Source: Phytoseiulus persimilis (lineage: Eukaryota > Arthropoda > Arachnida > Mesostigmata > Phytoseiidae). Taken from it: 64,000 nucleotides of DNA. Location of the stretch: assembly GCA_037576195.1 (NCBI GenBank), contig CM075104.1, positions 17,128,211-17,192,210 on the forward strand, written 5' to 3'. Made by a program: the position numbers and the translations under genes. Within the stretch, counting starts at the first letter, position 1. The number at the start of each line of letters is the position of its first letter. This document shows, one piece after another, positions 4,905 to 64,000 of this stretch. Below the pieces are notes generated by a model. That model ran no database searches, was not told the DNA's origin, and was given only the letters and a program-made list of their open reading frames with translations.

Positions 4905-5309
4905 ATGCCTTTCATCGACGACGATCTTATCTGGTGTCAGGAGCAAGGCAAGACCATGACCGAGCTGACAAACCTCTCGTGCTTGGATACAACGATAACA
5001 TTGGTATCACCCCAACCGACACCTGTCGAGGGCACCCTCACAGAACTTAGCCACACGGATCTGACCGGGCTCGCGCCAGCCCCCGAAGCCGAGGAATCAG
5101 AGGATCTCCTTCGATCACTGAACGATTCGCATCTCGACAACATTGAGTCGATTTTCGCTGATCTGGAGCCGCAAGGCAAGAATCTTGAGAATCTTACCAT
5201 ACTCGGAGACTTACCGCCTCGACGGAGGAAACGGAGGAAAAGTGCGGACAGCACGTCACATCTGACGCCTACAATCGCGCCGCTACACGCCGAGGATTCT
5301 TTCCAAAAT
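4905..5309 (+). CDS. Eip74EF: E74A isoform, coding exon 1 (ETS transcription factor)
   Basis: This exon encodes the first 135 residues of the A isoform of the ecdysone-induced ETS factor E74, a nuclear DNA-binding regulator of the moulting cascade. The start MPFIDDDLIWC matches the characteristic E74A amino terminus of insects and crustaceans as I know it. Residues about 66-88 (EDLLRSLNDSHLDNIESIFADL) correspond to the conserved fly block beginning DELFRSFSES. Residues 59-101 are acidic. PRRRKRRK at 105-112 is a basic cluster that looks like a nuclear localisation signal. The start codon follows an ATG-free leader with A at -3. The exon ends in phase 0 before the donor GTAAGA at 5310, and exon 2 follows after a 134-nt intron. 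Homology is clear; expression and hormone response are inferred from the family. Confidence 0.93.
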
Positions 5310-5443
5310 GTAAGACCGGATTCCACGATGCGCTCCTTTGAATAATTTCACGAGTCCACGTTCAAGCCGAAATCGTTCGACTTGATCGGAACATGCTCAA
5401 GGTTTGGGTTGAAATTTTATTCACTGCAAAATTTCCTCTCAAG
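5310..5443 (+). other. E74A intron 1 (134 nt)
   Basis: The intron starts GTAAGA and ends in TTTCCTCTCAAG, and is phase 0. Reading on without splicing would meet an in-frame TAA at 5343-5345, so removal is required to reach the conserved exon 2. Confidence 0.85.
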
Positions 5444-5549
5444 GTGCAAGTGAAAGTGGAACCTGGTGATTTGGATGGGCTCGACGTGTACATCAAACAG
5501 GAGCCGAACAATAAGGCTTCGGCCGACAACGGGGACCTCAGCGATATAC
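5444..5549 (+). CDS. Eip74EF: E74A isoform, exon 2 with paired SUMO-consensus motifs
   Basis: This small exon encodes residues 136-170 of E74A and leaves one base (C) for the next codon. It starts VQVKVEP; the VKVE core is also present in fly E74A at the corresponding place, just after the conserved acidic block. The exon contains two psi-K-x-E motifs followed by proline: V138-K139-V-E141-P142 and I152-K153-Q-E155-P156. Such paired motifs resemble the synergy-control motifs through which SUMO dampens transcription factors. That function is inferred here. The acceptor is CTCTCAAG at 5443 and the donor is GTGAGT at 5550. The phase-1 donor fits common exon 3, some 54.7 kb downstream, giving codon CTT (Leu171). 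No conserved exon was recognised between the two. Confidence 0.9.
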
Positions 5550-6507
5550 GTGAGTAACTTTTCGAGAGCGACTTTCGTCTTGGAAACAAGAGGCTGACTG
5601 GTCGGGGTGCCCAGGTAGCACCCCGAAACAGCTTGATGCTGTGGATCGTCAAAATCCACAATGCCGTCATCGGTGACTGAGACTTTCTTGCGTGGTTTTC
5701 TACAACCGCTCGAGCCGCGGCTCAAATTGATCATCTCATTGGTGTATACTCTTACCGGAAATGAGGGATGAATTGATCATCTTCGATAAATGTCCCTTCT
5801 CTCGATTCCGACTCTGCACGATGAATCGAGAACTCCGACTTTATACTCTTCGTTTCAAGATTTGTCATCAGATTCAGCGGGACCTTCCATCGAGCCCCAA
5901 ACTTGTTCCGGAAGAGCTATTCTCCCGCCGAAAGCAGGCATAAATGCACCGAGACTCGATTCGGGAGCCTCCTGCGAGCTGATCTCGAATCTCATTGTGA
6001 TATGACTCTGATGTCAGAGGAAAGAACCCGAGAGAGCGAAGCTTGTGACAAGGGTCGCCTTCCACCGATTACGGGGTTCCACTTCCCGATTGTCAGTGAC
6101 AACGACAAAAACATTGTTCACGAATGGCCACTCGGCATCGTTCATGAGATCTGTGCTCTGCGACGCACATTGCTGAGTAATCTTCTCCTCTGGTGGATCC
6201 CAACAGCTGATGTAACATTTCGTTACGCGACGATCCGGTGGGCTGTCCTGGGCTTCGCAATTCCACTTCCTTCCTGCCTACGTTGATTGGAATGGGGTCA
6301 GCTTCGACGTGTATACGTAGCGATGGACATCGCTTTCGTATCGGGCAAGACAGTCGTTGTAAAGGAATCCGGTTCGGGAAATCACTTTTATCAAGAAGTG
6401 CGTCGCCGCCATTGCCAAGCGTGCCACCACAAGCAAACCAATCAAAGTGGAGAATCGCAATCGAAGACACTCTTGTCGACTTTATCCGCCGCGTCGAGAG
6501 TTTTCTC

Positions 6508-6513
6508 TTTATT
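6508..6513 (-). terminator. Candidate AK6 polyadenylation signal
   Basis: AATAAA on the - strand (TTTATT on +) lies 242 nt beyond the AK6 stop codon, a reasonable 3' UTR length. The cleavage site cannot be seen from sequence alone. Confidence 0.45.
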
Positions 6514-6754
6514 GATGTCTCTCACTCAGCCACCCACTCTTAAGGTATTTAAATAACAAATACTATCGTCGGAAGAAGTCATCGTCATCAATCAAGGGAT
6601 CCATTGATGGTAGACTCGAAATTTGATAGATGGCAGACTATTGATGAATCGATCGATCGATGATAAGACAACTTCGGTGCTCCTCCCATGAACATGTTTA
6701 TGTACACTGGCTCCAAACGGAATCTTACGCGAGTGATAGTTGCCTGATCTATCG

Positions 6755-7288
6755 CTATTGCGTCGCGTTTCTCCACGCTTCGACCCACTTGCAGATCTTT
6801 TCCAAATTGTCTTCAAGCTGTTCGGGGGTGTCGCTGATGAGTTCGTGCACGATCTCTTCGTCGTACGAGGATCGAGCTTCGTCGAGGAGACTCTGGAAAA
6901 TTTCACATTGGACGTTGTCCTCGAGTTTCTTGCCCTCGTAGCCTCGATTGGCCAGTCGGTCGTACAGCAGCTTCGTATTGGTACGCAGAACGAACACGGC
7001 GTCGAACCAGCGTTTCGGGAAGAATTCGCAACCGTGGTAATCGACCATTTTGCCGCCTATTTCATCGTTCATCTTGTCTTCGATTTCGTCCATGAGCTTC
7101 TCTTCGTCAAGAACATGGCACTTGTATTGGTCGTCGAACGATTCGAAGCAGTTGTTCTGCTTGGCGACCTCTCCTACGTTGATCCATTCGAGACACATGG
7201 TCCGCGTTTCAAGTTCGGAACATAGGGTGGACTTCCCAGTTCCGGGAGTGCCCGTCACGAGGATGTTGGGAATCTTCCGACGAAACAT
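6755..7288 (-). CDS. AK6: Adenylate kinase isoenzyme 6 (AK6 / hCINAP / Fap7 family)
   Basis: This is a full-length nuclear adenylate kinase/ATPase of 177 residues; human AK6 has 172. The family transfers phosphate between ATP and AMP. Through its Fap7 role it acts in late maturation of the small ribosomal subunit. Residues 13-21 (GTPGTGKST) form the Walker A loop. The NMP-binding part includes the family-typical VDYHGCEFFPKRWFDAVFVLRT near 80-101. The LID segment is RLANRGYEGKKLEDNVQCEIF at about 108-128, and the carboxy end is the usual KICKWVEAW. The start is the ATG at 7286-7288; the frame is open 13 codons further but only from a GTG. The stop is TAG. The gene has no intron in its coding part and lies antisense within E74A intron 2, 1.2 kb past exon 2. 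No TAF9-like sequence, its partner locus in vertebrates, is visible nearby. Confidence 0.95.
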   Translation of the reverse strand: MFRRKIPNILVTGTPGTGKSTLCSELETRTMCLEWINVGEVAKQNNCFESFDDQYKCHVLDEEKLMDEIEDKMNDEIGGKMVDYHGCEFFPKRWFDAVFVLRTNTKLLYDRLANRGYEGKKLEDNVQCEIFQSLLDEARSSYDEEIVHELISDTPEQLEDNLEKICKWVEAWRNATQ

Positions 7289-10217
7289 TTGAGTGAACTT
7301 GACGCTCCAACGTCTCTTCCGAACCACAGAACAACACCGCTCTCGGAAAGCTCGGATCTCACCAAATTACGGAGAGCCGCCACGTGGGTCTCGTTGTCCT
7401 ATGTGCGTATTGCAAGTGTTCGAATCCGCCATATTTGTTTGGGAGGAGCTGGCTGCTTGGTATTTCTCTCTCTTTTTCCGGTGTGTCAGCGCCCTACGTG
7501 AGTATACCCGCAACTAATTTTGAAGGTGCACCGGCATCTTTCAACTTCCGCCACAGATGGCGCCACCGACATCGAACCAGAATTTCCGCTTTGAGCGCGA
7601 CTCCCAGTGGGCCACAGCCGCGTGCCGCGGCAATGAAGCCCGGGGCTGTCGGAGTCACCGAGGCATTCGAGAAAAGGAGGGAAACGCCTATCAGGGAACT
7701 TTATCCCGGTTCCCAACTCTCTCTCGAGGTTCCCAACCAGGTCAAGGGTTCACAGGGCACAGGTTTGTGTAGGGTTCGAGCAGGACGTGAACACCGCAAG
7801 GGCGCCTGCTGATTTCCGAATATGCCGTGCGCTCCCCGGGGCCCAGGGCTGTTCCCGCTAATCGCAGCATCGATCCACGGGCAGAGTGTGACGAACCTCT
7901 TGCGGCTACCCGGCGTCTTCCTCGAGGGCTCCGCCGAACGACGGAACCAATTCCTAGTTGCCCAGTGGGCGGGCCCATCATCCCGACACTAGGTAGCCGC
8001 TGGTAGAATCCGTCGACGTGACTGTCCTCGTCGACAAAGTACAAGATAGAGTGGAAGAAAACAGCCTAACCATCGAGTTGGTTTTGTCTAGACATGCAGA
8101 CATAGGCCAGCTTGTCTAATGCTGCTGTCGCTTCTTCTTCTTCTCCCCTGTTCAAGGCCATGTTGTGGCTTGAGACTCCTGCGACACCAGCAGCACTCGT
8201 GGTTGCAACAGCAGCAGGCAAGAGCTTGTAGCGGCCGCGACGCATAGATGCAAACAGTGTGAAAAGCAAGTCGTTTCCCTGTTTGCCCCTACTCATATCA
8301 GGTGCTCAAGTATTCAAAAACAGCTACTCGATCCAACGTCAACGACCCAGAGGACGAAAACAATTTGCTTGGAAACACGAGATGTTTTCGTGCTCCATTC
8401 CCGACTCCATTTCCTTATTTTACCAGAGCCAACAAGAGTTCAGAGAACTGCGATTACGGACTCCTAGGGATACTTCGGAACGAAAACAGATACGGACTAT
8501 TCCAAGATCTGTTCGTTTATCACAGAAACTCTGATTTAGGGACTGAAGCCCATCTGGATGAATTTGACCTGGGAGTGAACTTCTTCGAGCTCTTGTCACG
8601 CTCCGTAATCTGCTTCAATCCACAGTCGTGTCCCCGCGAATCGGAGCTGGGGACAGCACGATAGCGGTTGCCTGTCCTTCTCTGGTTGGGGATTGTCCGA
8701 AAACCCGAAAGCCTTGCTGGGCTGAACGCTGCGCTGTAAAAACTGTGCAGATCGCATCGCCAGATGAATAACCGAGGCAAGAAACAATGCCTCCGTTTGG
8801 TTTTCCTATGAGCTGAGTCGGCATCACTGATTGCGAGAAAAGTCTCCTTTCGGTGCCAATTGACTCAGGCGTCGGAACATTAATGTCGGCCAGCAACTTT
8901 TTTGCCCCCATTGTCAAGGCCGTCATACCACTCATGCGCGTACGGCTTCTGCTTATCAGCATAGGCGGCATATGAGAAAAATTGCCTGACGGGTTCTCAT
9001 GGCTGCGCCGAGGAACAATGTTTCGAACGTCACCCGATTCCCTCGTGTCGTGCCGCTAGTGACGATGAGCAGAAGGGCTTTCAACTTGAGTGCGAAGTGT
9101 CGCGCGAGGCGCATGCACTGCCTCGCCAACATCATGATTCATGAGCTCTGAAATCGTGCGAGAAATCTCTGATCAACAACGCGATATGGAAAACCTTCTG
9201 GTTTTGTGTTGCTGTTCGCGCGCCCATCGCAGTGTCATGATCGTATCTGAGTCCGACTGCCTGTCTGTACCTCTGAAGCGTATCCAAGTCGTTCCGCGAC
9301 TTGCCCGCGGAACCCAACGCTGAACGGTTCCCTGAGCTTTGCTGACCGCGATCACGACCTCGGAACATCTTTCCGGAGCTCCTCCCGACCGGGAAGCGAG
9401 GAGTTTCTGATCGCAGCCCTCGTCTCCCGTCGGACTCAATGCTTCGTAGGACATAGTGGTACATTGTGCATGGACCTAATCCGAAATGTTGGTTGGGCGT
9501 TCCAAAATCCGATATGATGTTCAATTATGAGAAGTGTTTAGATCGGTACGAGTTCCCGGCAGCCGGTGTACTGAACGGTCCGTCCGAGAACTGAAATGTT
9601 GTAGTTATAGGGTTGTCGGGACCGGTAGCGAGCGAAGCGGTGGTGGCGGCGGCAGCGGCAGCTATCCATGATCGCCTCTCAAGAGACCGACCACCATCTG
9701 GTCGCATGAATGTCTCAATCTTCACTCGTGTTCAAGAATAGCTGAGCTGTAAGCAAGCTAGCCAGCAGCCAGTTCCTATTGAGAAGGAGTTAGCGAAGAA
9801 TTGTGGTTGGTTTGCATGCCTGTCGCGGTGCCACAATGCTTCAGATTTCCCATGCTTTCTCTGAACATCTCGTTTCGCTCACTCGACTACTGTCGCTCGC
9901 TTGATCTCGGAGATACATCACTCGAGACTCCCCCCATCATCCCCTCCATCCATGAGAGTGACCAATGATGTAATCAGCTCTCGAACTCCAGTTTGTTTCA
10001 GGAGTTCCGAACTTCTCTCTTTCTTCTAGAGCCGCGGTCGGGATCTCCCTGCGACCTGATGTCTGCGGATCCGATGCGGCTCCTCGTATCGAACAATTGT
10101 CTCCAGAACGAGAGTGAGAGCGAAAGGTTATTTGGCTATTTTCGCTTGATGTGCTTTTCGATAGCCAGACGTCTCGTGTGGGGGCGTTGAGGCCGCTGGC
10201 CGAACGAAGGATCGTTT

Positions 10218-10226
10218 TCAAGGTCA
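10218..10226 (+). promoter_or_regulatory. Candidate FTZ-F1 / E75-type monomer site
   Basis: TCAAGGTCA is a perfect extended half-site (YCAAGGYCR) of the type bound by FTZ-F1, E75, HR3 and ERR family receptors. Beta-FTZ-F1 is a competence factor for E74 induction in flies. A nine-base site alone is weak evidence. Confidence 0.3.
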
Positions 10227-10888
10227 AATGATCATCTGCTATTTTGTCGTGTGCTCTGCATTGGAGGGTTCAGCGGGCTTCTGTTCCAGTGCCTTTGACT
10301 CCGGTTTGGTCGTTTGGCTCTTTGCGAGCTCGCTGTTTTGTGAATGTTCCTTTCCCTCGAAGCGCTCGTTTATCTTTCCCCGGCCAGAAATGGTCAATGA
10401 CTCGTTGTCCTTGGATACGTTCTTTTCAATCGGTGATGGAAGGCGTCCGGGAAGATTACCACACTTCGGTCTTGTTTCCTTGGTGCAGCAACTTCTTTCC
10501 GACGCTTTCTCGTGTGGCCACGATCGGCGTTTCGGTCGGGCACGCGCAGCTCTCTTAACTGCTGAGGACGCGCGATCCAAAAACCCGAAATATTCCCGAG
10601 GAATCGTCTCGCAACGGAAAACTACCGATAGATCACGATCTCTGGGATCGGAGTGAGACAGATTGAGCGGGGACTGTCTGAGGATCTCCTTTTTTCTGAG
10701 ATCGATAGTCGAAGGAGTTGATCCTGTGTGACGGTATGTAGTCGTTGCGTAAGATATTTTGCACGCTCCGCTACAAGGTTCCCTTCCTTGGATCTCCTCC
10801 GATGCATAGTCATCCCACCCTGTTTAATTTGTCGGCGTGAAGATGAGGCCGAACCGGACCCTCGTTGAAGGTTGAGCTGTGAGGAAGT

Positions 10889-10897
10889 TCAAGGTCG
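10889..10897 (+). promoter_or_regulatory. Second FTZ-F1 / E75-type monomer site
   Basis: TCAAGGTCG matches YCAAGGYCR and lies 671 bp from the first site in the same orientation. Binding is not shown. Confidence 0.22.
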
Positions 10898-12618
10898 GAC
10901 GATAGGGATGGAAGCTCCTCGTTGGCTAGTTAGTCAGTCAGTCGGTCGCTGGGTCGGTGCACGGGTGGGAGGACAGCAGAAGGGAAAGTCTGCTGGCGGA
11001 TTTTTAACCTAAACCAAGCAGAGAGAAAAAAGTCGAAGTGAAGGGCGTGGTCATCCAACTGCGCGCGTGAGTCCGTTCGCTCGCCTGCCTTGTCTGCTCC
11101 ATGGGTCGTGTATTCTTGTGCATTTGTCACGCTCCTCCTGGACAAAGTATAGTCGTGTGTTCTAGCGGAGCACCAGCTCCAGAATCCAGAATGGTGATCG
11201 CTTCGAAAGAGGAGAATCAGTCTAGCTCGCCAAGGAAAAGGGTAGTGACCAGACGGTCCTCGAGCTCTGAGTGGCCAACACGATGCCCAACACGGGTTGG
11301 GTGGGACAGCCGAGACGACGGCGACTAACGCAGACATTGATCATAACGGCATGTGCGCCATATGAATGAATAACCAACTCTTGACCGAGCAGACAGAAGG
11401 CCTCCGGCGCAGCGGCCGCTTCGAAAGGGTGCGATGTCCGCCTCTTCCCGAAACGCGTCTCAGTTTCATATTTTCCCCTCTATGATAGTTCACTTCCTTG
11501 ATCGACTTCCCAGACTCCAGCCCGCTCTCCGATCCCGGGCTCACGATTGGAACTCTTTAGTTTCGTGAACTTCCGCGCTTTCCATTCCTCGCGACGGACC
11601 CCAGTTCATTCGTCCTGCGGCCCGGGTCTCGTCTCGTCAGTGAATCTTGTCTGTCGGGGCTTAGACTCGCCGATCTTTCGTGCATCAGCACTGCCGTCAA
11701 TGCCCTGATGTCAAACACTCTCGTCTCGCGTACAGGTCATTGTCTCGTGCCGGGTGTCAAGGCTGATTCTTGGACGTCTCTATTGTATGAAGCGTTTCGA
11801 CATCGCATGCATCTCTCGCTTCGAGTAATTATAGCCGGTCGTCAGAACGGACGTTGAGCCGAAATGCTCTGGTCGAGCCGGCCACGCAATGCGTGGCATT
11901 GTGTGAGTTCCGCGAACTTTACAAGTTGCCGGATTCTCCTGCGCCGCTGAAGATCTATAAACAAGCCTGCAGGAATCGCTCGCTGGAAACTCCGCTCGTG
12001 GAGGATCGTCTCCGCTGAATGATATTCTTAGTTAACGAGACAGCGGACCGAGGGAAAGTAAAGGGGAGTACGCTTGGTTAGTTCGACAGCGTTCCCCCTT
12101 CTAGCACGCTCACGGGGGCCCTGGCTCGTACCGATCGAGGGGTACCGACCTGAATGAACAGAAGGCAACCCTTACACAACCCATCTAAATTTCCTCCTGG
12201 AAGACCAACTGGCGTGCCGACGACTGGATGTTTGGTTGGCAGGCCGGCCAGCCAGCAGGCCGAACATCCATTTAATCGGCGATAGCTACATCTTTGGTGA
12301 CACCGTGCAGCAGGATATCCGTCTGGATGGAAGACAACAGACGAGCTATCGGCGTATTCTTGGGTTTTGCAGAGATTCCGCTTCCTCTACTCGGAAGGAG
12401 TCCTTCGGTTCCGATGTGTACCGGTCACTGCCGAACGGGGACTTTTTCTTTTCGTTTGGTGTCCCCTCGACGGTTCTGCAGCGAGAGGTGTCGAGTTCGC
12501 TCCGAATATCAAACTTTCTCCGCTGCAAACATCCCCACCCCCGCCCGTCGGTTGGCTTTCATTTTTGCTCGCGAGAGAAAGCGCGAAATTTTTGAATAAA
12601 TCTCCCCCGGCTCTGTAA

Positions 12619-12654
12619 TTCGTTCGTTCGTTCGGTCGGTCGGTCGGTCGGTCG
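12619..12654. repeat. Compound tetranucleotide repeat (TTCG)4(GTCG)5
   Basis: Four TTCG units pass without a break into five GTCG units. Degenerate GGCC/GGCA/AGCA-type units follow up to about 12698. This is the clearest example of the drifting tetranucleotide islands seen throughout the intron. Confidence 0.9.
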
Positions 12655-15600
12655 TTGTCTGGCTGACAGGCCGGTCGGCAGGCAGGCAAGCAGGCACGCG
12701 ACTTATGTTCAACATTGGCTAGTGCACCGGATTCCCAAGCATCGAGCGCATTATGCTCCTCGTATCCGGACCGCGAGCCTCGTTTCGAGCCTCGCCGATC
12801 CCTGGTCTGTCCGTCAGTCGGCCGAACCGGCGGAGTCCAGGTGACATGCTGACCTCGAAACTCCGTTGCTGACCCCTCGATGTCTAACGGAGCCTCGGAC
12901 CGGAGGCCTCGACTCTCAAATGCGCAACGATGCAAAAAGCCCTGTCTTGAAACACTCGCAGTCGGTCACCAGACCGGATTTGGAGTAGAGATCTGTGGAC
13001 GAACGGAGTCTTCACGCGAAGTCTTCTTCGGCTGCGGCTCCTGTCGCAGATATCCTCCTCCAGCTGTTGTCTCTCGCTCTCTCTCTCTCGCTCGCGTCCC
13101 CGACGTCTCCGGCGAAAGAGCTCGACTATCTGTCATAACTAAGAATTTATGCTAACACGCGAACTTCGGAATCCTCTGTTCACGCTCAATATTTGTGGCC
13201 GGTGTTGAAGCGAACACTGACGACGCCATCCTACAAACACACGTTCGCCGATCATATCCACAAACCAGATGACTTCATCGAGACGAATCGCGGAATATTT
13301 GTTTGCGAGGCTTAAGAAACCGCCACTGCTGCTGCGAGTCTGGAATTAATATACTAAGCAGCGGTCACATGCTTGATCTATGACAAAATCATCCGTCTGT
13401 CCGCGTGAACTCCTTCCTTCCGGCTGTGAAGCGGTCATTCCGCCGTCGTCAGACGAAGCGGTTTGAGGTTTTTGGATTCAACGAAAGCCCGCTGAACGTT
13501 GAAGAAGCTCCGGAGTTTGCTTGCGGTGAGCTTCTGGCTCAACGAGATTCGGGATTAGACCAAGCGACATTCTAGGCACGCGGTATGCGTATCCGACCCG
13601 ATCGCGGTCGACCGTTATGTCGACGGAAATCGATCGGAGCGATAGTCTGCCCGAAATGCAGTCAGTCCATCCATCCATCCATTCGTCGTGCACACTGTAC
13701 TGCTCTTGTTTTGACTCGGAAGGAATGTTCCGCCGGATGGATGCATGACTACACTCGCGCCGAGTCGCTCGCTTGAACCCCTCCAACCCTTCCGTTGACC
13801 CTTGTTCTTCCCGTTACTCGGACACTGCCGCTGACGATCAGCGTCGTCGGCGGCTAAGAGGACGATGACCGCTTCCGGTGTTTCCGGTGACCGGAGGCGG
13901 AACCTGTTGCCGGACTGTGGCTCCGACTTCGAGTTCCGTTTTTCGATCATCAATCGCTCTTTGAGGAATCATCGCCGGTCTGTTCGGTCATAGCCGCAGA
14001 CCAGGCTACCCTGCTCGACTACCTTCCTGCAGAACGAGAGTTGGACAACAGGCATTTTCTCAACTGTCGGATGAACATGCAACAATTTTTGCTTTTTTGA
14101 GCCAGCGCTCCGGTCGGGAGTCGCGGGACTATTGTGGCCAGTGGGACTGGTTCCCCTCTTCTTTTCATGACGAGTCCGCTCTGCATTGCAACGGTCATCG
14201 CGATCGGGAACACGAGAGCAAGATGCCGTGACGCGATTTGCGACAATAAAATCCTAGAACACTCGGATTTTTTGGGTTGAATGACAGTGAATTTGAAATG
14301 TACGATTGGGCCGATTCGCTTTCGTTCAGTGAATTCCTCCTCCTCTGTTGGATCCAATGCAGGAGTTCTCCATCTCACGAGTTCTTCCCCCGGGGCCGGG
14401 ACTTTGGCGATCCTGATTCGGACTCACTTGTGAAAACCAACTTCTAAAACCCCTGCTGTCTTGGTCGAGAGACCGACCGCTGGTGTCCGCTACTCGGAAG
14501 CGGCCATAAAAAAAACTCAGGTGTTTCCGACAACTTCGAGAGACTTCGGAGCTCGAAGCGGAGCGTTCGATGAGGTGTCAGACCATTGGTCAGTGAGGGG
14601 TGATCTCGTCGATGGTTAACGGGACCGCCGGATGCAAGAGAGAGAACTTCCGATTCGAATCGTAACGGCACACTCGGGCTAACATTTGACCGGTTCAACG
14701 AACTCGCGAACAGCGCTCTCATGGATTCCGGAGCTCGGGATAAGAGTGGAAAACGACCTCCGGTGCGTGTTTCGTGGGATTCCCACGTCGTCCAACACCG
14801 ACGATTGAATGATTCGTGTAAAAACTTGGTTTCCGCGAGCCGATCCATAGTGTTACGACGCGCGGTCCGGTGTCCCGAAGGTCGCGGAAGAGGAAATATC
14901 GAACCGGTCATTCTTCTTCAGACCGCCATTCCCGATCGAGCCAGATCTGATTATCGGAGGTCATTGTGAGATCACACCCTAAGTCCCATTCTCACTTCAA
15001 CAAAACAACTTGTTCAAGGCCCGTAAGAAACCTTGAAGTTATTTCAGTATCTGTTGATGGTGGAGCGCTTCTGGGGTAGCAGCGCCCCTTGGAGAAGCTC
15101 TGAGACTCGTGATCGCAGACGGAGGATCCGGTTCACGCTGCTCAGAGATCCGAGTTATGAGTTGTCACGTTCAGAAGTGACCTCGGAACTGGGAGCATGT
15201 TTCAAAAGGTTTCGAATTTCGATTGTGTGTTCATTTCGAGAAAACATTAATAACGTGCGATGACCTCGACTCGATTGCGCGGCTCGCCGGCGTCAGTCTG
15301 CCTTGTCCTAACGAGATTGTTTAGCGTCCAGCGGAACTAAAACGACGATTGTGATTACTGCCGGTTTCCGATCAGCGGCAGCTTCCGAACTTCCCTCGAA
15401 CTAACGCATCCGTCCATGGACACGGGGAACTCATCTCGGGGTAGCTCGGCTTTCAACGGCGCGCCGCGATTCCCGACAGTCGGAAAGTCGCGATACGGTT
15501 GCACGACACCCGGTACGTTGCCCGGGAACCAACGATCTTCGCGTCTCGTGTCGTCGTTGCTGGAGTCGCATGACGACACCTGGAAGATTCTGTCCACTCC

Positions 15601-16623
15601 AGAACATAATTGGAGTGCTTTCGGATCCCATTCGACGGGTTTCCGGGTTCGGAATGCGACGAAAAACGTCCGTCAGACCCCCGTTTCTGGAGAGTTCAGC
15701 TTCTCTTCTACGAGGCGCAACGACGGAATGCGACAAACGAATCAAGTACGGTCGTCTCGATTGCTTTGTGTTCGAGAATCCGGTTGAGCTCGAAAGGTGG
15801 ATCGTTATCACTTCTTGAAACAGATCTCGGGGAACCGTTCGATGAGGCTCGAAGTCTTCCGAACGAAAGTCTTGTTTTTGTGTCGTATTGTTCTAAAAAA
15901 TCCGGGGGAATTTTGAGCGGCAAAATTCGGCTTGCTCTCTTCGGAGCGAAAACCCCACAAAAAAAAAGCATTCGTTCATTTGTAAAGGAAATTCGCCGAA
16001 GCTCTCAAGGCGTTTCCTAGTAACCCAATACAGCCGCCTCGCCACCAGCAAAAGGGTTAGATAGGCCTGATGGTCCGCAAACGAGGTGACAATGTTTTTG
16101 TGAATCGACTCCATTCGGTTTTCAGCCCTCAGAAAAAAAATACGAGGTGAATTCATGTTTGAATCGAGTCGAAACACCACTCGAAATTCGCAATCCCGCC
16201 CAAGGTTGCGGCTTGTTCTCGGAACTTGTACTTGTACTTAGCCGCGGAGCTCGAGCTTTTGGACTCAAAAACTACGCTTCTTGATTTTTGTCGCCTTTTT
16301 TGCGACTCTGATGCAAGCAGCGCTTAAGTTACATAAGGGTTGTGTAACCGGGAGAAGCACGAAGTTCCCAAAGTGGCAATCGATCGGAACAGTCGCCAGA
16401 CTCCCGGCTCCTCTTCCTGGCTCCAAGGCCAGAAAGCCGCTGGGTAGAAGTAGTTCCTCCCTGGTCTCTCCGGTGATGTTCATCAGCCACCCGGCCAGTC
16501 TCTGCCCCAACCAAGGACATCGTTCACGAGGCTCCGTGTCAAGCCTCTCCGCGGCTGACTAGAGAAGAATCTGCGCTGAGGAATGACCGACCGAGGAACT
16601 CGAGCCGCGGTTCATTCCTGAGC

Positions 16624-18759: not shown

Positions 18760-18775
18760 CAAACAAACAAACAAA
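18760..18775. repeat. (CAAA)4 tetranucleotide repeat
   Basis: Four exact CAAA units, seen directly. Confidence 0.85.
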
Positions 18776-47730: not shown

Positions 47731-47754
47731 GACGACGACGACGGCGGCGGCGGC
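47731..47754. repeat. (GAC)4(GGC)4 trinucleotide repeat
   Basis: Two exact trinucleotide blocks adjoin. The underlying frames are not recognised as coding. Confidence 0.85.
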
Positions 47755-53107: not shown

Positions 53108-53131
53108 ACCGACCGACCGACCGACCGACCG
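53108..53131. repeat. (ACCG)6 tetranucleotide repeat
   Basis: Six exact units, followed by CAAA and GAGC units to about 53157. Positions 53110-53129 are a perfect reverse complement of the (GTCG)5 tract at 12635-12654 in the same intron. Confidence 0.9.
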
Positions 53132-56100
53132 GCAAACAAACGAGCGAGCGAGCGAAAGATATTTGTGTTCCAAACGATCTCGTGAACGCAATCTCGGAAT
53201 GGGTTAAAGGCTTGTGACGGACGGAATCTCGTCGTTGCTGACTTCGATTCGCTCGCACAGCCAAGACGTGGGCTGTTCATGGGAAGCTCTCTCCGACAGT
53301 CCTTCCGATCCAGACTCGCGCACGGAACTCGCTCTCGTCGGAACCCGCTCCTCGCCGAGGCTGAAAAGCCCAGTTTGTCTTCAGCAAACGCTAACCTATC
53401 GACCCACTGAGTTGGCGGAACCCGTTGAGTTCAACGGGTCTTCAAAACCGAGCGCATCCGGTTCATTGTCAATTGTAGGTGGAGCGTCAGGTGGTGGACG
53501 ACGGCATCGACCAGCGGCAGCGAAAGCAGCAGCCAGAGACATCTTGCACTCTGATCAGAATACCATGAAACAAGCGGTTCCTGGCATCGAGAATTTCGTG
53601 TAACTCCCCCGACTCGAGTCGATCACAATCCGTGTCTCGGCGAGCAGGGAAAATCGAGACCTCCTTCACCGTTTAGAGCAACTTTTTTTCTGACGAATTC
53701 CGTTTGCTCTACGGCATCTGAACGGAGATGTGGCGGTGATATATCGGAGGCACTTTTTCTCCGAGAGTTCCGTCGGTAGATATAAAATTTCGGAAATCGA
53801 AAATAGAACGCGCTATCCCGTTAACTAACGGTTTGCTCACCGCGTCAAGCCCAAGGTCGGCTGGGCTTCCCCCGTTTTCCGTTCTACATCTGTGGACAGA
53901 AAAACCTGCGAGCGAGACCTGGATACGTGCTGCCACTGGTAGCTAGAATTCGAGGGATTCGACGTCGACAAGATGAGCCAGGACGACGTCGCAGAAATTG
54001 TTTCGAAACGCGATCGGCTTGCGTACAGCATCGGAACATCATCCCAAGCCAAGATTACCGCAGACTCGCGCAAGGCTTCTCCTCCATTTGTCATTCGGGG
54101 TTTTGTTTCGGTTTATTCATCAGCTGGCTGGTTGCTCCGGGAAGATTGTGCGACCTTCTGGAGCGAGCGGAATTTCGACCTTTCAATTAGCCGAGTCCAG
54201 CTCCAATTACGCGTTGTCTCCGCTCGGGACCGCGCTCGGGGTTCATCCCATCCAGGTTCTTTTGTCGCCGCGGGAAACTGGATCAATGTCAACCGTTTCA
54301 GTCGTCAAACATTCATTCCATTGAATGGAGCGGGCGGGCGGACCATCGAGCCGAGTCTCTGTTTGGTTCGGTTGGACTTGCCGCTCGAGTGCCGTGATGA
54401 TGCTGCTGTTGTCGCCGCTCATGCAGCAGCGGCAGCAGTTGTATGAGAAGAGCGCCTACCCGTCGGTTACATAAGAGAGCAAGCGCATTGTCACGCGGCC
54501 GTCGGTCCTCTTCTTCCAGCACGCCGTTCGTTATCTACCACCACGGCGACCGTGAACCGTGATTCAGATTACCAATGAGCCGCCGCCGCCGCCGCTAACT
54601 GTGTCCGGTAAACGAGAACCTGGTGCAATCGATGACTCGAAGTGTTCAGACATGCAAAGCTCGCCCGGGAAATTCAGAGGAAAGATTTGCAGTGAGAACG
54701 GAGAATACGGCCGCGTCCGATACCGCCCGCAGTTGTCGCTTCGATGAAGCTCCGCTTGATTACTGCGTCATCGGAACGACCTCATTCGGCCGGATGCCAA
54801 CGACGAGTCAGTAATTGAAACTGTAAGATTCCCTCGTGGCCACGGATCGCTCTTCTGCTGCGGAGAACCTGCGACTCCGGCCCTGTGGGTCCGCCCTGCG
54901 CCTTCTAGGCTCGACGAGGCCAGGCTCCAAGACTCCCGAACGCTTCATCTCTGACAGGAACTCTTCTCAATTCCCATTGATGCTGTAACGCCGTAGTGCG
55001 TTATAGCGCATTATGCCAACGTCCTCGTCAGTCAAAAGTCGATCCATGCTCTTGACCCAAAAGCGGTGGACCCAAGGACCCGGCAGCCAGCAGCCGGAGA
55101 CGAAGCGGAGGTAACATCAGCGCGGGCAGCCGCATCTTATGCAACCCAAGGTCTTCGCCGTCGGTCCAAACCCATCTGCGCGTTCTCAACCGGAGAGCTA
55201 GGAACGCGGCTATCGGAAATAAGATGTTGAGTAATCGCGGAAACGAGAACCTTCGGAAAGCGGCCTTGTTCCCGGATGAGGAGTCGACGCGTCCGGCTCG
55301 ACGAGACCACCGGGTGGAGATCGTGTGCGGGAAGTCGTACGATTCGGCATCGGGGACTTGAGGGAGACGTCCCCGCCGCACAACCTAGGCTCTCGTGGAG
55401 AGGAAGCGGCGGACTCGAATCGGAATCTCGAGTGCCCCAAAAGAGCGTCACCAGCGATCCCACGGGACTGCAAGGTCAGCGAATACTGGAACAGCGGCTC
55501 GAGCCTCGTCTAGAACGCATCCAGCGCTTGGCTCCGCGTGGCTTCCCTGTGAACCGAACGCTCACCGCGTAATTGCGAGCCATCCGACGAATTGGAGGGA
55601 CGCTCGATAAGGAAAACAGCGGACGCAGGAAATGTGCTTGGAACCACAACGAGCAGAAATGGCTGCCGCGCAAGCAGGATCTTCTACATCTGCAACCGGG
55701 GCTCGAAATAAATCCACCGCTGCTCTTGACCCGCACTGCCGGCAACGTAACAGGAAAAGCCTTTCAATGAAACAACACGTCATGCGCGATCCGGCCCGCG
55801 CAGACCAGTGGACCGACATTCGGAACGACGGACTGGCCGACAGTCACGCGGTCAGCCAGTTGAGCGCGGATGGGCGCTACCGAGTCTTGCGGTGACGTCC
55901 TGAGGGAAGACCCCTGAAATTTCTGCCAAGTTCTCCCCCACAGCGCAGGAGATTCTCGAGATGGGAGAGTTCCCGGAACTTCCGGCCAGAGACGCTGTCT
56001 TCCTCCACCGAGCCTCCGCTAATCCGCCAAAGATTACCCTCAAAACGGCGGAAAACAACTCGTCATCGACCGCAATATCCCGTCATGTATCATGATTCGG

Positions 56101-56534
56101 CATTGCTGGGAAGTTTCGCTCGCGTCCCAAGGCCCAGGGTTCTCCGAAATGGGCTCCGGAATCCCGAGCTCCGCCAGGAGCGAGCGCGAGTTCCAGTGCG
56201 CGGAAAAAACGGAGCTCCAAGAGCGGAAACGCTCCATCCGGTGCCGGAACTCTGCTAAAGATCTTTCCTGTGAGGCGCATCCGTAACTGTACCGGCTACA
56301 GCGGAGTCGGACGTTAGTCCTTTGCCTGCTGCTTCTGCATCGCTGGCTACATGGCAGGCAGGCAGGCAGGCGGTCGGGCGAGAACACCGACCAGACGTGG
56401 AAAGAGCTCTTTCGGAGAGGGAGCATCCATTGGGAGAGCCGCTATGAAGCCAGTAGCAGGCGCACGAGGAACAGTCTTGTGAACGCATCCGAAACGAGCG
56501 GCCACGCTGTGCGTTGTCCGCTGATTTCCCCTTC

Positions 56535-56568
56535 TCAGTGTTCACTTGTCACCAACTTCAGTTAGTTG
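56535..56568 (+). promoter_or_regulatory. Candidate E74B core promoter (Inr + DPE)
   Basis: An initiator-like TCAGTG lies at 56535-56540, with the presumed +1 A at 56537. AGTTG at 56564-56568 sits exactly at +28 to +32 and matches the DPE consensus RGWYV. There is no TATA box near -30. The presumed transcript has no ATG before 56697, the first codon of the B-type exon, 160 nt downstream. The last base of the initiator deviates from TCAKTY; a consensus-perfect TCAGTT at 56558-56563 has no DPE at the right distance. Transcription start is inferred. Confidence 0.45.
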
Positions 56569-56696
56569 TCGTTCGCAGCGCGTCAAACAGTGTCTCCGTC
56601 GTCGACTCGGACCCCCCGCTGTTCAATAGTTCGGAGAGTCTCCGAGACAGCTCGAGTGGCAAAAGTTCAGTGTCTATCTCACGCGCCCGCGGATAA

Positions 56697-56976
56697 ATGG
56701 GTGCAGTCAGTGTGGACCTTACTCGACTACTGTTAGCCGCTACTGTGGGGAATAAATTCAGGATGACATCCGAGCAAGTGGTTCCGGATCAGAGTCCGGT
56801 GTCTGACGCCGACTCGATCATCTCTTCCGGCGAAGAAAGCGAGAACGAAGTTCTTGACCTGCACATCGACCGGTCGAGATCTCCGGCGAGTTCGCCCCCT
56901 CCGAGACGCACCGCCTCCCTAATTTCCTCCGACCCAAAGAGAACGACGTTCAAGAAATCCCTCATGAAACGATACC
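56697..56976 (+). CDS. Eip74EF: E74B-like isoform, alternative first coding exon
   Basis: This exon encodes up to 93 residues that would replace the E74A-specific amino terminus. It uses the first ATG after the candidate promoter and has an in-frame TAA just upstream. A second ATG at 56763 (M23) has A at -3, a better context than the first, and may be the main start. From M23 the sequence is acidic (DADSIISSGEESENEVLD), then Ser-Pro/Arg-rich (SRSPASSPPPRR), then basic, ending KKSLMKRY. The consensus donor GTAAGT at 56977 leaves one base, C. This is the same phase and the same base as E74A exon 2, so joining exon 3 gives MKRY-L-DGGE. Without splicing the frame stops at 57108, giving a protein lacking the ETS domain. 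The B-isoform identity rests on position, promoter, phase and the LMKRYL junction, which I recall from insect E74B but could not align. Confidence 0.75.
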
Positions 56977-59900
56977 GTAAGTCCGATAAGCAGAGCAGTG
57001 GAGCCGAATGGTGTCAAGAGATCATTCGAGTCGAGCCCGAATTCCTCAGCGGGGAAAAAAACATGAGCCGGAAGGAGGCAAGGACGACAACAAATTTTTC
57101 TCGCTCATGAGTTAGCAAACGAATAAGTGAGTGATTGTGCGTCGGAATCCTCTACCTTATTCAGAGCGAACCGCGTCACTTCCTCAGAGTAGAGGCGGAT
57201 TTCAGTCGAGAGTTCCTCTTCATGCTTGCCAACTTCCTTCCTCATACACCAACAAGGATCTGACTGTACCTGCAGCTGACGAGCCAGCTAGCTAGCCTAC
57301 TCGATTTGCTCTGGCGAGCGCTTCTCCTGTCAGACGTGGTAAACCAGAATTGCACGGACTCGAACTCTCCAAAAACCGCGATTTTTGAGAAACTGAGCAA
57401 CAGGGGCAATCGTTGGTTGCTCGGACGGTGTTGGATGTCAAGGCTCGGGGGATGCTCTGTTGGCGATTGCCTGCTTTGCGGACAGCCTTTTGGCCTGCCT
57501 TCCTGTTCTTGCGGGTAGCCTGCGAGCTAGCCGAGTATTGAGTGCCGTCATTGGCGCTCACACGCTCAGTGCTCTCTGGGTCAATGGCACGGGCTGTTTC
57601 AAGGCCAGCCTCGCGCATGCTCCAAAGGGCCAGCCACCGACCCACGCCATTGCCGTCGTCGCGGCCGCTGCTGCCACCATCACCACTACAAGCAGGAGGC
57701 GCAGCGGCACCACCAATACAACGGACTCCTCCGACACGGACGGAAAGGGCTCTATGAGTCTGCGTCCCTTCTGGTCCTGCCGCGCCCCTTCGGGGACAGA
57801 GGAGGCATTCCAAGGGAAGAACAGAGTCCGTGGGGAACGAACGAGCGGGTGAGCAAGCGAGCGAGCTGGCGGGCGGGCGGGCAAATAAGCGAACCGAGGG
57901 AAGACGGTTCCAGGAAATTTTCCTCATTCGACAACCACCCGACTTCCTAGGAACCAAGGCGGTGGCGGTGCAACGACGCCGGCAGCGCTGGCGGCGAATC
58001 GGGCCTTAGATCTCGTCCTCCGTTGCTCGCTCAGGTTCAGTCAGCTCTTCTGCGATGATGAACCAGTGGAATCTCTTGAGATGATGGCGTGAGACATTGG
58101 CCCAAGTCACGATTGATCTCTAGCAGTCCGGAAGCGAGCGAACGAAAGAAACCGTCCCTGCTCCCCGTGGGGCCCCCTTCTTGTTCACTGAAGCGACCCC
58201 CTTCCCCCAGCCGATCCCAGCACTGCTCCAGGAAGAAATTTAGCCTCGTGGCCCCTTGGAGACGACTTGACCATTCGAATGAGTGCAAGAAAGTCATCAG
58301 TTGACCAACGGAAAATGGGTCGCTCGGATCCCTGGATTCGGGAAGCGTAGGGAGAGCATCGCTGCCATTCCACGAAGAGACTTAACCAAGCATTACTCAC
58401 CTCGCATCCATCCACCTGGGTTTGGCCGGCCCGCTCATTGGCTCTCTGATCGTATCTCCCCTGCTCTTGGCTGGGCTGTTACAAATGACTTCTCTCCTTA
58501 CAACAGGAGTCACAAGAGTCCTTCTACTTCTTCTTGTCATTCTTCGACCTGAGCGATAGGAGTTCTCTTCTGCGATTTTCCGCCCGGAACCGGAGTCATT
58601 CTCGACAGAGTGTGGCTCCATCGCAACATTTCGCAGTCAAGGATCCTGCGAAGTCACCTTCTTGTTCCCTCTGGATGAATTTGATCTTCGGGATGCGGAT
58701 GGCCTCAACTTCGATCCGTTTCCTTGCTCTGAGCTCCCGAAAACAGCTTCGCTGTATCATTTGGTCGCTCTCCGCTCCGACATCCCGTTAACTCTGGTAA
58801 AGATCTGGAGCTCCGGTTCTTCTCGGGCGGCCCTGACCCATTTGAGTCTCATTTCCTTATTCCTATTTTTGTTTGTTCCATACAGTCGATTGGGAATGAT
58901 GATGAAATAACTTGTTTGGAATGAACGGTTATTATCGAATCCATGACGCTAACCAATATGAGAATCGTTGTCAAGGCCAAGAGAGAAACTTGCCAAGATG
59001 TGTGTCAAGATCACCTAACTGTCTTCCAGACTTCGGCGAATGGAGGAGCGGAAGAGTTAAATTGGCTCAGCGTTTGCTATGTGAACTAGCCAGCGCCGTA
59101 GAAGAAACGACGACGTATTTCTCTTGGCTTGGCAGCCGTATCGAGACAGTCTCGTTTTGTTGCGTTCGATGTTTCTTGTCTTACTTGGCTCGAGTTCAAT
59201 GACGGATCGAGAGCTCCTGACTTCAAAAGTGAACAGTTCTTCCAACCAATTGATAGAGAGAGAGAGAGAGAGAGAGATATTAATTCACTTGAACCATATC
59301 CGTATCTGGGCCGAATCGTGTGCGTCGCCGATCGACTATGTGTACGTTCTTCGAGCGCCAAGCCAGCGCGTAGAATACAAGTTCAGTGTAGCGATCGAAA
59401 CTCCTCGATGCGACTACAGCGACGAACCCCAAACTCCGAATGGATCTCGTACGCACTCAGGCGACGCGGAACGACGTGCGGGAGGCTCACTTCCTTCAGT
59501 GGCGACTTCACAGCGATGACACACCCCATTCTGTTGGCGCTACTGCCTCGGCGGACAAGCATAGGAACGGACGGACGGAATGGTCATTTTGATCTTGGTG
59601 AACTGAAGCAACGGACGAATCAGCCGAGAACTCCGCTTGTCTGAAAATAACACAAAGAACTTCCAACACACCAGCCAGGCATCCAGCCGGCGAGGCAAGC
59701 AGGGAGCCTGGCAGGCAGGCAGGCAGCCAGCCAGCAAAGTAACGGACAAACGCAACCCTGCCGCTTTGGGGTTGCGGAGCCACGCACTTTCATCACCGGG
59801 CTTTCGACAGACTGCTGGCCTCGCTTGCCATCATCCCAACAACGGCACCAGCAGCAGCACGGATGGCAACAACAACAACTACAACGGCATACATCGGCGG

Positions 59901-60269
59901 AGCAGAAATGGCAATCGCTGTTTAATGCGGCTCATGCTTAGTCCTCCCCCATCAATTTAAATTATCGTCATCATCTCTCCTTCGGGTCCCGCAAACCAGT
60001 GTGCATCGGGCATTTCGTGCTTCCTTCCTTTTGAGGAGCTCATCGAGAGTCACTGCCGAGGTTCAACACTCGATAAGAAGGAGTCGCTTACTTATTATAT
60101 CAAAAACTATTCAAAAACTTCCGCTTTGGTCGTACATCGCCCATTTTCATCTTCCGCGGATCCCCCTTCCGAGATCCCTGAGCTTTTATGCGTAGAGTCT
60201 CTGTCGAATTTCGCACTTTTCAGCCAGTTATGTTTGGAACCCGAACTGAATCAATTCCTGTATTTCCAG
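56977..60269 (+). other. E74B-type intron 1 (3.3 kb), no further exon recognised
   Basis: It begins with GTAAGT and ends at the acceptor shared with E74A. It contains tetranucleotide islands at 57280-57300, 57845-57890 and 59708-59736 and an (AG)n tract at 59255-59277. A frame at 58662-58910 reads protein-like at first (FPLDEFDLRDADGLNFDPF), but it begins with TTG and has no splice context I can defend. Confidence 0.6.
59255..59277. repeat. (AG)n dinucleotide repeat, 23 nt
   Basis: An uninterrupted AG tract. In flies such GAGA tracts bind the GAGA factor near developmental promoters. Here it lies 2.7 kb 3' of the candidate B promoter; function is not shown. Confidence 0.9.
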
Positions 60270-60500
60270 TTGATGGAGGCGAGCTTTCAAGAGCCCACGG
60301 CCGCCATCAGCGCCAGTCATCTGGAACTGACTCGAAGAGCGTCCTGGTACATAACCTCATGCTCCAGCAGCACTACATGAACGGAGCTCTCTCATCTCTC
60401 CCACCGTCTCCAGCTGACTCCGGGGTCTCCGATGTTGACTCTTCCTCAGGACATCTTTCCACCGACGAGGCCAAAAGCCGGCTTCACGGAGACGCATCAG
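60270..60500 (+). CDS. Eip74EF: E74 common exon 3 (conserved PPSPADSG block)
   Basis: This exon is shared by both isoforms. Its first two bases complete the split leucine codon and its last base begins a split aspartate. It encodes 76 whole codons (E74A residues 172-247). The block LPPSPADSGVSDVDSSS, at about 214-230, is nearly identical to fly E74 (FPPSPADSGVSDVDSSSS), followed by a TDEAKSRL resembling the fly ADELKARL. The run SKSVLVHNLM lies before it. The acceptor is TGTATTTCCAG at 60269 and the donor GTGAGT is at 60501. An upstream acceptor at 60227 (CAGCCAG) is also in phase and open and would add 14 residues. No DNA-binding part is encoded here; the SP and DSG residues suggest phosphorylation-dependent control, which is inferred. 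Confidence 0.92.
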
Positions 60501-63321
60501 GTGAGTTTCAGCTTCGGCTTTCGTTAAACTTCGTTCCCACCTTGAGGAAGTTGCTCGAGAAGACCAAAATCCATCTCCCTTTGGCACTCGGACAACGTAG
60601 AATATCTTCGGCGAACCTATTTTTTTCCGGCCTTTTTGCGATGGATATATTTGGTGTGTTTTCTATCGGTCTGTCCGTCGGTCTGTGGGTCGGTCGCCGT
60701 TTGGGCTGTCTGTTAGCCGGTCGGAAAAAGTTGTTGCATAACAACGCGAGCAATCCGTCGCTTGCTCGCCGCTTGTGACTTTGAACTTGGGATGCAGAAC
60801 CAGCCAACCAGCCGAGCAGGCAAGCAAGCAACCACTCGTTGGCTCACCGTCTGTTGGGCAAGAGTGATGTCGTCAGCCGAGGGAGCAGCAAGCCGGCAAC
60901 CAACCCTATAGCCAGCGATCCAAACGACAAAGGGGATAACTCGGCGGCCGCCACGGCGGCGTTACGTCAACCGGGTGCTACAAAGGAATCACTGGTATCG
61001 GGGGAGCAGAGCTTTGGTCTCTTCTTCCAAGCCGAGAAGTGTCTGCCGAGATTGGTGGCATCGGGGGACTCGCGGAGAGTGAAGGAGTCGTGGCCTCCTG
61101 TGTGAGGGTCTCATCCTGAGAGCGAGAGCCTCCAACCCCTTCCTGCATAGCATGTCCCCACATGTGTAGCGTGGTTCTTGCTCTCATTCACGGACAGACA
61201 GCCTCCCGCCCATTCCGCGAAAGCCCTTGCGAAATTCAGAGCCGGGCCAGGGGGTTGGAGAGGAAGAACAGAAGAAAAGAGACAGATATGGAGTTATTCC
61301 GAAAAAAAGAATTCTACCTGCGCCTCGGTGTTCTTGCTCTGGATTCCCTCGTGACACCACCCCTATCCCCTCCTCGACCCACGCCCTCGTACCGACCGAC
61401 TCGCCCACCCCCTCAACGTGCTCCCCGATCGCACTCTATCGCCGCATCGACTTCCATTCGGACCACCGACCCCGAATGCGAAGATTCTTTGAAGCGCGCG
61501 ACTGCCATCGGAATGAGTCACAATCGCTCCACGAGTGGACTGCATCAAAGAACCGTGTCTCCGCGCATGCGTTAGCGTTTCAAGGTTAAAGTGTCAGTGG
61601 CAGCAGCGGTCGCGGCGGCGGTCTGACGGGGGAGAAAGGACTACAACCAGGACGAGACAGGAGGATCAGGGAGGAACACGGGCAATCGAGGGAGCGACGA
61701 ACGAGGGAGGAGCCTTTGCTTAACAGACTCCATCCTTCGTTCCTTCTTCTTTGTTCAGCACTCCCAACTCGCGCTCCGTCTCTTCCCCTCTTCTATCGCC
61801 TGTCTACGAAACCTTGAACACAGTGTAACACAATGTTGCGATTAGCTAGAACTGAAGAAAACGTACGAACGAAGCATCCAGCGCGAGCGAGGACCCGAAT
61901 CCTTCGTCGAGGATGCATTCAAACCTTCCTTCCTTGGTTTTGTCCTGCCATCCATCCGGCATCCTCGAAAGCGGGGAAGTCTGGCGCTTGAGCTAGAGAG
62001 AGAGGAAAGGGTTGAGCGCTGCGTCGAGCACAGAGAGTACACGCATCTGAGAGAACGAGGAAATCCAGCATGAACTTGAACTCAAGGCGAGGAGGCCCAA
62101 CAGGTGAATCACTGTTGGTGCGGTAGGTGCATTGTTGGAATCGCTTACGACAACGGTAGCGAAAAAAGTGAGAGCAACAGTAAAGGGAGAAGAGAGAATA
62201 CGAAACAAGAAGTTGAGGAAGGGTTCATCAAGGACGCCGCATTCGCATCCTGGCTACATTCAGTGACGACAATGCGGAAAAGCTATGAGAGTCTGCTTCC
62301 TCGTTTTAGGCTGCGTACCTGCTCAGAAAGCCCGGCAGCTACAGCAGCTATCCGAGTATTCTTTGCGCAGAATGCAATGAAACAGCGGCGGAAAAGAAAA
62401 AAACCCGTAAAATGGAGAGAATACACTGAACATCTATGGGAATATCTTTCTACCTGGGATCTCGGCTTGGGAATTGATACCGTGGGTTTTATCGGAATCA
62501 AAGGAGTCTCCATCGAGTTCTGCGTGCTCTCCTCCGATGTGCCCAAAACCTCCATCGTAATCTCGGGAGTCTTGGAATGCAAAGCCGAGAACTTCAACGG
62601 GAAAAGGGATGTGCCGTCGTTATTCACGAACGGGTTCCACGGACAGATTTCTTTCATGGGAGGGAGGCGGCAGAGCAGTCTTCCTGCGAACTTCCTTCAG
62701 GCGTTTGTCCGTTGCCGTGGCGTGTATCCGCTGCTTTGCTGGCCAACCGCTTGGTTGGTTGGTCGGCTCATCGTTGTTCCGTCCATCCGGAGAGTCAAAG
62801 CACTCCCCAAGGTCTCCTGCTGCTGTGGCCGCGGCTACAGCCAGCGATGCTGCCACCTCTCCACTGTTTGTCTGGCTGGCATGCATGCAGTGCCGTAGCG
62901 TGCCGCTTTAGCTGGTGAGCCAGCGCCAGAACGAGGAAGGAAGAGAGGGAGCTCTACGTCGTCGTCGTCGACGACGACGGGGGGCCCTCTTGGTTAGTGG
63001 GTGAGCCACTGAAGCAACGACGAGTAAGGCCGTGGGCCGACTACGTTGGGCCGTCGGAACAACCGAGCGACCGAGTGAGAGACTCACAGACAGACAGAAC
63101 CTGCCTACTGGTGCCGTGGCTGCAGTGTTGTGATGTTGGCGCCCCTCTTGCTAGGAGGCCCCTCGGTCCGATCGGACGACTTAGACAACCGGGTTTCGCT
63201 TTTCCTCTTGATGACGGCTACTGGGCAACATTTGTTTCCGCGTTTCCTTCGGCCCGCACTCCACTTTGCTTTGCTCGGCTCCAAACACTAATTTCTCCGT
63301 TTTCTCTCTCTCCCCTTACAG
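60501..63321 (+). other. E74 intron 3 (2.8 kb)
   Basis: The intron runs from donor GTGAGT to a strong acceptor (TCTCTCTCTCCCCTTACAG) and is phase 1. It carries drifting tetranucleotide tracts at 60665-60725, 60795-60840 and 62730-62770 and a 20-nt perfect palindrome at 62960-62979. It also holds a 264-codon open frame at 62104-62898 (first ATG at 62272) with no recognised domain. Confidence 0.85.
62960..62979. repeat. Perfect 20-nt palindrome of CGT/ACG triplets
   Basis: CGTCGTCGTC is followed directly by GACGACGACG, giving a zero-loop inverted repeat centred at 62969/62970. Confidence 0.85.
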
Positions 63322-64000
63322 ATTCCGATCTTAGTGGCGTTTATACGGGATCCACGACACTGCCCTCTGTTCAGCAACAGTTCATGTACCGCCAGCTGAA
63401 TGGTGTTCAGATTTCGCCTTCGAACCAAGGACTGCTGTCCACGTCGCCTTCACTGCCCTCCGCTTCGACGCTCAACCATAGCTTCGGCGGTCAATACGAA
63501 GACCAGAAACCTTTCTTGCCCTTGGCGTTGACCAAAAACCTGCCAGCCTCTACATCGATCCTGCCCGCGGCGACTTCCTCATCTCCCAGCAGCCCCCCGG
63601 CAGGCTCTCCCCCGTCGACTGGCAACAGCTTCTTCCCGAACTACTACTTCCCCAACCAGCAAGGATTGAACATTCAGAGTCAGCAATACTACCACGAGGA
63701 CCTCGGCTACTATTTCGCTGAGGACCTTTCGACTGGAGGTGCTCAGAAACAGAAGAAGCCCCTCAGCCCGAAAAGGCCCTCGAAACCCTACGATCCAAGC
63801 CAGCCTCAGCCCCTGAAACGCAAAAGCCGCGAAGGATCCACCACGTACCTGTGGGAATTCCTTCTGAAGCTTCTTCAGGACCGCGATTGCTGTCCTCGCT
63901 ACATCAAATGGACCCACCGCGAGAAGGGCATCTTCAAACTGGTGGACTCCAAAGCCGTCTCAAGGCTGTGGGGTCTGCACAAGAACAAGCCAGACATGAA
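63322..64000 (+). CDS. Eip74EF: E74 common exon 4 with start of ETS domain (truncated by window edge)
   Basis: The exon begins AT after the acceptor CTTACAG and completes G|AT (Asp248). It stays open for 225 codons to the window end. The first 130 or so residues are Ser/Pro/Gln-rich. [16 protein letters not shown] followed by KQKKP resembles the fly segment SYDLSYMLELGG just ahead of its basic stretch. The basic [10 protein letters not shown] leads into the ETS winged helix from about 63837. It reads [15 protein letters not shown], then [20 protein letters not shown] and [16 protein letters not shown]. This is the E74/ELF subfamily signature; [23 protein letters not shown] is shared with vertebrate ELF1/2/4. 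The domain is cut before the recognition helix (normally MGRALRYYY). It binds GGA-core DNA sites in the nucleus. Confidence 0.97.

Follow-up and report, generated by a model that had tools for sequence, protein, structure and literature searches.

A mite E74 gene with E74A-type leader exons and a candidate internal E74B-type first exon

Does the E74 gene of a mite possess two alternative starts, as its fly counterpart does? The question arises from a 64,000-nt stretch of DNA (hereafter called the window; G000:C4:17128211-17192210 of a 181-Mb assembly), in which two leader exons and a distant internal open reading frame can all be spliced to the same downstream exons. A preliminary description of the window had read it as a two-promoter E74 locus from splice phase alone. 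The gene itself is familiar: it is E74, which in flies responds to the moulting hormone. Our analyses give solid support to its A exons and make exon B, the internal one, a probable but unproven part of it. In the arrangement that we consider probable, a single E74 (Eip74EF) gene would use a distal promoter for E74A and a proximal one for E74B, with shared 3' exons.

The components of the gene are listed below. Positions are those of the window, which ends at 64,000; higher numbers refer to the adjoining downstream genome sequence, which was used to complete the gene.

4905..5309, + strand: exon A1, E74A-specific; 405 nt, 135 codons, phase 0; starts MPFIDDDLIWC
5444..5549, + strand: exon A2, E74A-specific; 106 nt, that is 35 codons and a leftover C; VQVKVEPGD...
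5550..60269, + strand: long E74A intron of 54.7 kb, enclosing candidate exon B
56697..56976, + strand: candidate E74B-specific exon B; 280 nt, that is 93 codons and a leftover C
56763..56976, + strand: candidate exon B read from its second in-frame ATG; 71 codons and a leftover C
60270..60500, + strand: shared exon E3; 231 nt; SLPPSPADSGVSDVDSSSG
63322..64027 (window part 63322..64000), + strand: shared exon E4, carrying the initial portion of the ETS domain
64166..64274, + strand: last coding exon E5, ending with a TAA stop at 64274

The exon coordinates, the four donors and the three acceptors of the preliminary description are exact to the base. The donors of A1, A2, B and E3 read GTAAGA, GTGAGT, GTAAGT and GTGAGT, all of the GTRAG type, and the acceptors, CTCTCAAG, ATTTCCAG and CCTTACAG, all end in AG. 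Exons A2 and B do converge on one acceptor (60270) in the same phase 1, as had been claimed: each ends with a C that is the first base of a split codon, and E3 adds TT to form CTT (Leu) at either junction. The proposed in-frame joining of E3 to E4 (60500^63322) holds as well, the G of the former and the AT of the latter giving GAT (Asp), and both the A and the B readings are free of stops throughout. The E4 donor at 64027, GTAATT, is weaker, and the intron that separates E4 from E5 measures 138 nt. Assembled from A1, A2, E3, E4 and E5, E74A is 518 aa long; the predicted E74B would have 441 aa if started at ATG 56697 and 419 aa if started at ATG 56763. Downstream of the stop codon, AATAAA signals are found at 67039 and 68379. 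Exons A1, A2, E3 and B are single-copy, each matching one place in the genome, and the sole additional match was to one place elsewhere, with an E value of 0.415. An alternative acceptor for E3 is possible at 60228, which would lengthen the exon by 42 nt at its 5' end (60228-60500) and keep the frame.

The assignment to E74 and the soundness of the A exons are well supported, as judged from sequence, because the ETS domain is of the ELF1/ELF2 type and because A1 matches a fly E74A N-terminus. Among the best 60 of 67 PDB sequences, ELF-2 (1.5e-55) and ELF-1 (1.5e-50) rank ahead of ELK-1 (1.2e-27) as matches to the ETS domain, which places it in the ELF1/ELF2 subfamily and not in another ETS group. 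With the whole E74A protein, Pfam returns Ets alone (3.6e-34). The N-terminus of A1 scores 34.7 bits against a fly E74A N-terminal sequence, and the best of 500 shuffles scores 27.3 bits, so the protein alignment called for in the preliminary description supports the E74A assignment. We take the hallmark of E74A to be an N-terminus beginning MPFIDD...W-C, and A1 begins in this way; a search of the open-access literature for the printed MPFIDD peptide found no paper. The coding score of A2 is 12.8 bits, and 12.9 bits when the seed exons are excluded from the model. Eleven ETS matches were found in the genome. Eight of them were translated as loci to check for a single orthologue, and among these eight the E74 locus alone appeared ELF-like by eye. 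Another ETS gene, with an Asn-rich flank, lies on a 25-kb contig (C114:7140-10379), with a G+C content of 0.525, similar to that of random loci. No relatives of the ETS domain were found in viral contigs. E74 homologues are reported in the ecdysozoans studied, according to the accessible part of one paper (PMC6170570).

How strong, then, is the case for exon B? We defined a strict rule (an ATG, at least 93 open codons, a GTRAGT donor and phase 1) and a looser one (a GTRAGN donor and 70 codons). On the + strand of 5550-60269, exon B is the single strict candidate, and none was found on the reverse strand of the same interval in any phase; the looser rule adds a second phase-1 candidate at 46867-47101. 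Two strict ATG-to-GTRAGT frames in phase 2 are also present on the + strand, at 31818-32101 and 48580-48896, and cannot join E3 in frame. Of the six frames of this stretch, that of B has the highest codon score, and the five others contain one to three stops each. Translation could begin at ATG 56697, with T at position -3, or at the in-frame ATG 56763, with A at -3. From the latter, the N-terminus reads MTSEQVVPDQSPVSDADSIISSGEESENEVLDL..., with 10 Asp or Glu among its first 38 residues and 26 Ser, Thr or Pro residues in 71. The internal exon is a plausible E74B-type alternative first exon, its likeness to the fly A/B arrangement resting on position, phase and leader features and not on sequence homology of B. 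Of the earlier claim that the fly architecture is conserved in this lineage, the compatibility of position, phase and leaders stands, whereas the assignment of B as E74B-type is reduced to plausible.

Both leader regions contain an initiator-like motif from which transcription might start:

4704..4709, + strand: initiator-like TCAGTT, candidate E74A start at 4706; a match to the consensus only; ATG-free to 4905
56558..56563, + strand: initiator-like TCAGTT, candidate E74B start at 56560; a match to the consensus only; ATG-free to 56697

Thirteen of the 798 + strand ATGs have a TCAGTT at most 210 nt upstream with no intervening ATG, and ATG 4905 and ATG 56697 are among them. ATG 56763 has no such leader because ATG 56697 precedes it.

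Taken together in the two-promoter arrangement, a distal promoter near 4.7 kb would give rise to E74A from A1, A2, E3, E4 and E5, and a proximal promoter near 56.6 kb would drive transcription of exon B with the same E3-E5, yielding E74B. An internal start is compatible by sequence with the acceptor used by the A exons, in frame. The two proteins would have a common ELF-type ETS DNA-binding domain and differ in their N-termini only. With ~59.6 kb to cover between its predicted start and the stop, as against ~7.7 kb for the B transcript, the A transcript would be the later of the two to appear after a hormone pulse, and by analogy with flies A may act as an activator and B as a repressor.

A number of findings weigh against this arrangement. 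At least one strict phase-1 candidate occurred in 12 of 60 dinucleotide shuffles and, in a second run, in 88 of 400 (22%), with the leftover C in 30 of these 400 shuffles. Twenty random loci of the same genome (200 kb, both strands, three phases) contained 19 candidates by the strict rule, real exons included, equivalent to ~0.9 for each strand and phase of a 54.7-kb interval. The combination of splice phase and open frame is weak evidence for exon B when taken alone, because 88 of 400 shuffled introns yield such an exon; what endures of the phase-based two-promoter proposal is the E74 identity with the A and shared exons, but phase does not suffice for B. The self-trained codon score of B is -0.9 bits for the whole exon and 1.5 bits from ATG 56763, and a codon scan of the window places neither B nor E3 among the segments above 12 bits. 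Around the candidate starts, we found neither a TATA box (in 4300-4905 and 56000-56700) nor, between +28 and +33 relative to each site, a downstream promoter element. The window contains no perfect ecdysone-receptor palindrome, the near-matches with one mismatch being 13 in number and scattered. Looser forms of the initiator are common (39 of the 798 ATGs for TCAGTY and 70 for TCAKTY), and the initiator criterion was picked after the sequence was seen. A chance open frame beside a donor-like site, with E74A as the only product or with another proximal start, would fit the shuffle rate as well as the missing coding bias of B and the absence of a Pfam match for this exon above the cut-off, and we regard it as improbable. 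Against a chance origin, the conserved exon E3 does no better than B in the codon test (-4.2 bits; -5.9 bits with the seed exons excluded); since E3 is surely coding and scores negative, codon bias cannot decide on B and was discarded as a test in both directions. Furthermore, a strict candidate exon together with a TCAGTY leader was obtained in 1 of 400 shuffles by this post hoc criterion.

Exon B could also belong to the long transcript itself, as an optional cassette exon of 240 nt (56737-56976) between A2 and E3. Such a cassette would be a multiple of three, be entered in phase 1 and remain open. Our scan for in-frame cassettes in the A2-E3 interval returned 0, 2 and 3 candidates at thresholds of 14, 12 and 10 pyrimidines in 19, and the 240-nt form is one of the two found at 12 of 19, a value equal to that of the E3 acceptor; these properties, too, count against a separate first exon. 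The cassette acceptor is weak and is lost at 14 of 19, but so would be those of E3 (12) and A2 (13), and only the settings of 12 and 10 are therefore informative. As a control, the scan at 10 of 19 recovered E3 together with its longer form, 60228-60500. Also against a cassette, the B open frame continues upstream to an ATG with an ATG-free leader and the initiator-like TCAGTT, and we hold the cassette to be distinctly unlikely. The two further cassette candidates of the A2-E3 interval lie at 7330-7497 and 32009-32101, and no in-frame cassette exon of at least 90 nt was found between E3 and E4 at three settings. With both alternatives weighed, we consider exon B likely, though not proven, to be a genuine E74 exon.

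The size of the gene raises the matter of timing. The distance from ATG to stop is 59,370 bp in the A form; in the B form, counted from ATG 56763, it is 7,512 bp. The fly E74 gene is 59.1 kb long in the available text of PMC7230524; that figure is for the whole gene and the mite value of 59.4 kb runs from ATG to stop, so that the two are not like-for-like. If transcription ends near the AATAAA at 67039 or 68379, the mite unit would be ~62-64 kb. For the fly, the accessible part of PMC8998493 gives unit lengths of 60 kb (E74A) and 20 kb (E74B), with which the delay between the two mRNAs is consistent, and fly E74A induces its targets whereas E74B represses them, as stated in an excerpt of PMC2040218. 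One may picture the E74A unit as held near 60 kb in mite and fly, in spite of short introns in its neighbourhood, to serve as a clock, an arthropod-old timer imposing a 52-kb delay behind E74B. We think this very unlikely, and selection on length itself is speculation from one species pair. The fly-like length is probably a coincidence, the intron holding enhancers and a nested gene (AK6, described below) with its length unselected, an explanation that competes with the timer and leaves the identity of the gene untouched. The comparison is a single one between two species, made with unlike measures, and the B units disagree, the fly unit of 20 kb (PMC8998493, seen in part) facing ~7.7 kb to the stop here, so that the offset between A and B is ~40 kb in the one and 52 kb in the other. 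Against a coincidence stand the small number of internal repeats in the intron and the gaps of just 68-263 nt in the nearby eIF5B-like gene. Because repeats are few and nearby gaps short, general DNA gain does not explain the length of the intron.

The interval between A2 and B (5550-56696) covers 51 kb and is a candidate regulatory or timing intron. One gene was recognised in it:

6758..7288, - strand: adenylate kinase isoenzyme 6 (AK6/CINAP) homologue; single exon, 177 aa; AAA_18 at 4.8e-32

It lies antisense inside the E74A intron, ~1.2 kb past exon A2. Its frame was pinpointed by the P-loop, human AK6 structures match it at 7.4e-63, and it has one match in the genome. By internal comparison of 5550-56696, direct repeats of at least 30 nt form two families, and a single inverted pair of this size is present. 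A Pfam scan of 117 of the 121 stop-to-stop frames that reach 120 aa in the window, frames open at the window ends being left out, returned eleven families with one frame each. AAA_18 corresponds to the AK6 frame; the other ten are mostly NTPase families, with a best value of 6.6e-05, plus ECSCR at 0.0014. No Rfam match reached gathering scores in the window. Across the whole window, the CpG observed/expected ratio ranges from 0.70 to 1.63 in 500-bp windows; CpG is not depleted, which suggests little DNA methylation.

The 20 kb downstream of the window (C4:17192001-17212000) are gene-dense, with genes for a UPF0113/PUA protein, an RRM protein, a GTPase and an ABC transporter (ABC_membrane_2). 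We presume the UPF0113/PUA gene to be NIP7-like and the GTPase gene to be eIF5B-like; seven successive coding segments, two of which have Pfam matches, were taken as the latter. The upstream flank contains one coding-like segment, without a Pfam match. For the predatory mite Neoseiulus cucumeris, the text available from PMC6902594 gives a mean intron of 420 bp and a genome of 173 Mb.

Should exon B be confirmed, the two-promoter pair of E74 activator and repressor would be known beyond insects, in a further arthropod line that is probably the chelicerates. With this likeness in length, comparison across species can test the long-standing notion of gene length as a timer of the ecdysone cascade. 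Among the best-ranked open-access papers, as far as their accessible text goes, we found no report on the promoter structure of chelicerate E74A/E74B, subscription papers and annotation databases being outside the scope of the search.

Among known systems, the vertebrate ELF1 and ELF2 proteins provide the closest solved ETS domains (among the best 60 of 67 PDB sequences), a comparison limited to this domain, which is also the only one that Pfam finds in the mite E74A protein. The resemblance to Drosophila E74 (Eip74EF) extends to the plan of the gene: both are ELF-type ETS genes with distal A exons and shared 3' ETS exons, a candidate proximal B start occupying the corresponding place in the mite. 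The MPFIDD start of E74A is common to the two, and the spans are alike in the different measures compared above. The mite differs in N-termini shorter than the fly's (170 aa for A and 93 or 71 aa for the predicted B), in the shorter predicted B unit and in the AK6 gene nested in its intron. The two mosquito isoforms, AaE74A and AaE74B, are the homologues of fly E74A and E74B, as given in the accessible part of PMC9225820, and silkworm E74 isoforms are known to us from a title in its reference list. Compared by description only, the mosquito offers the same two-isoform pattern that we propose for the mite.

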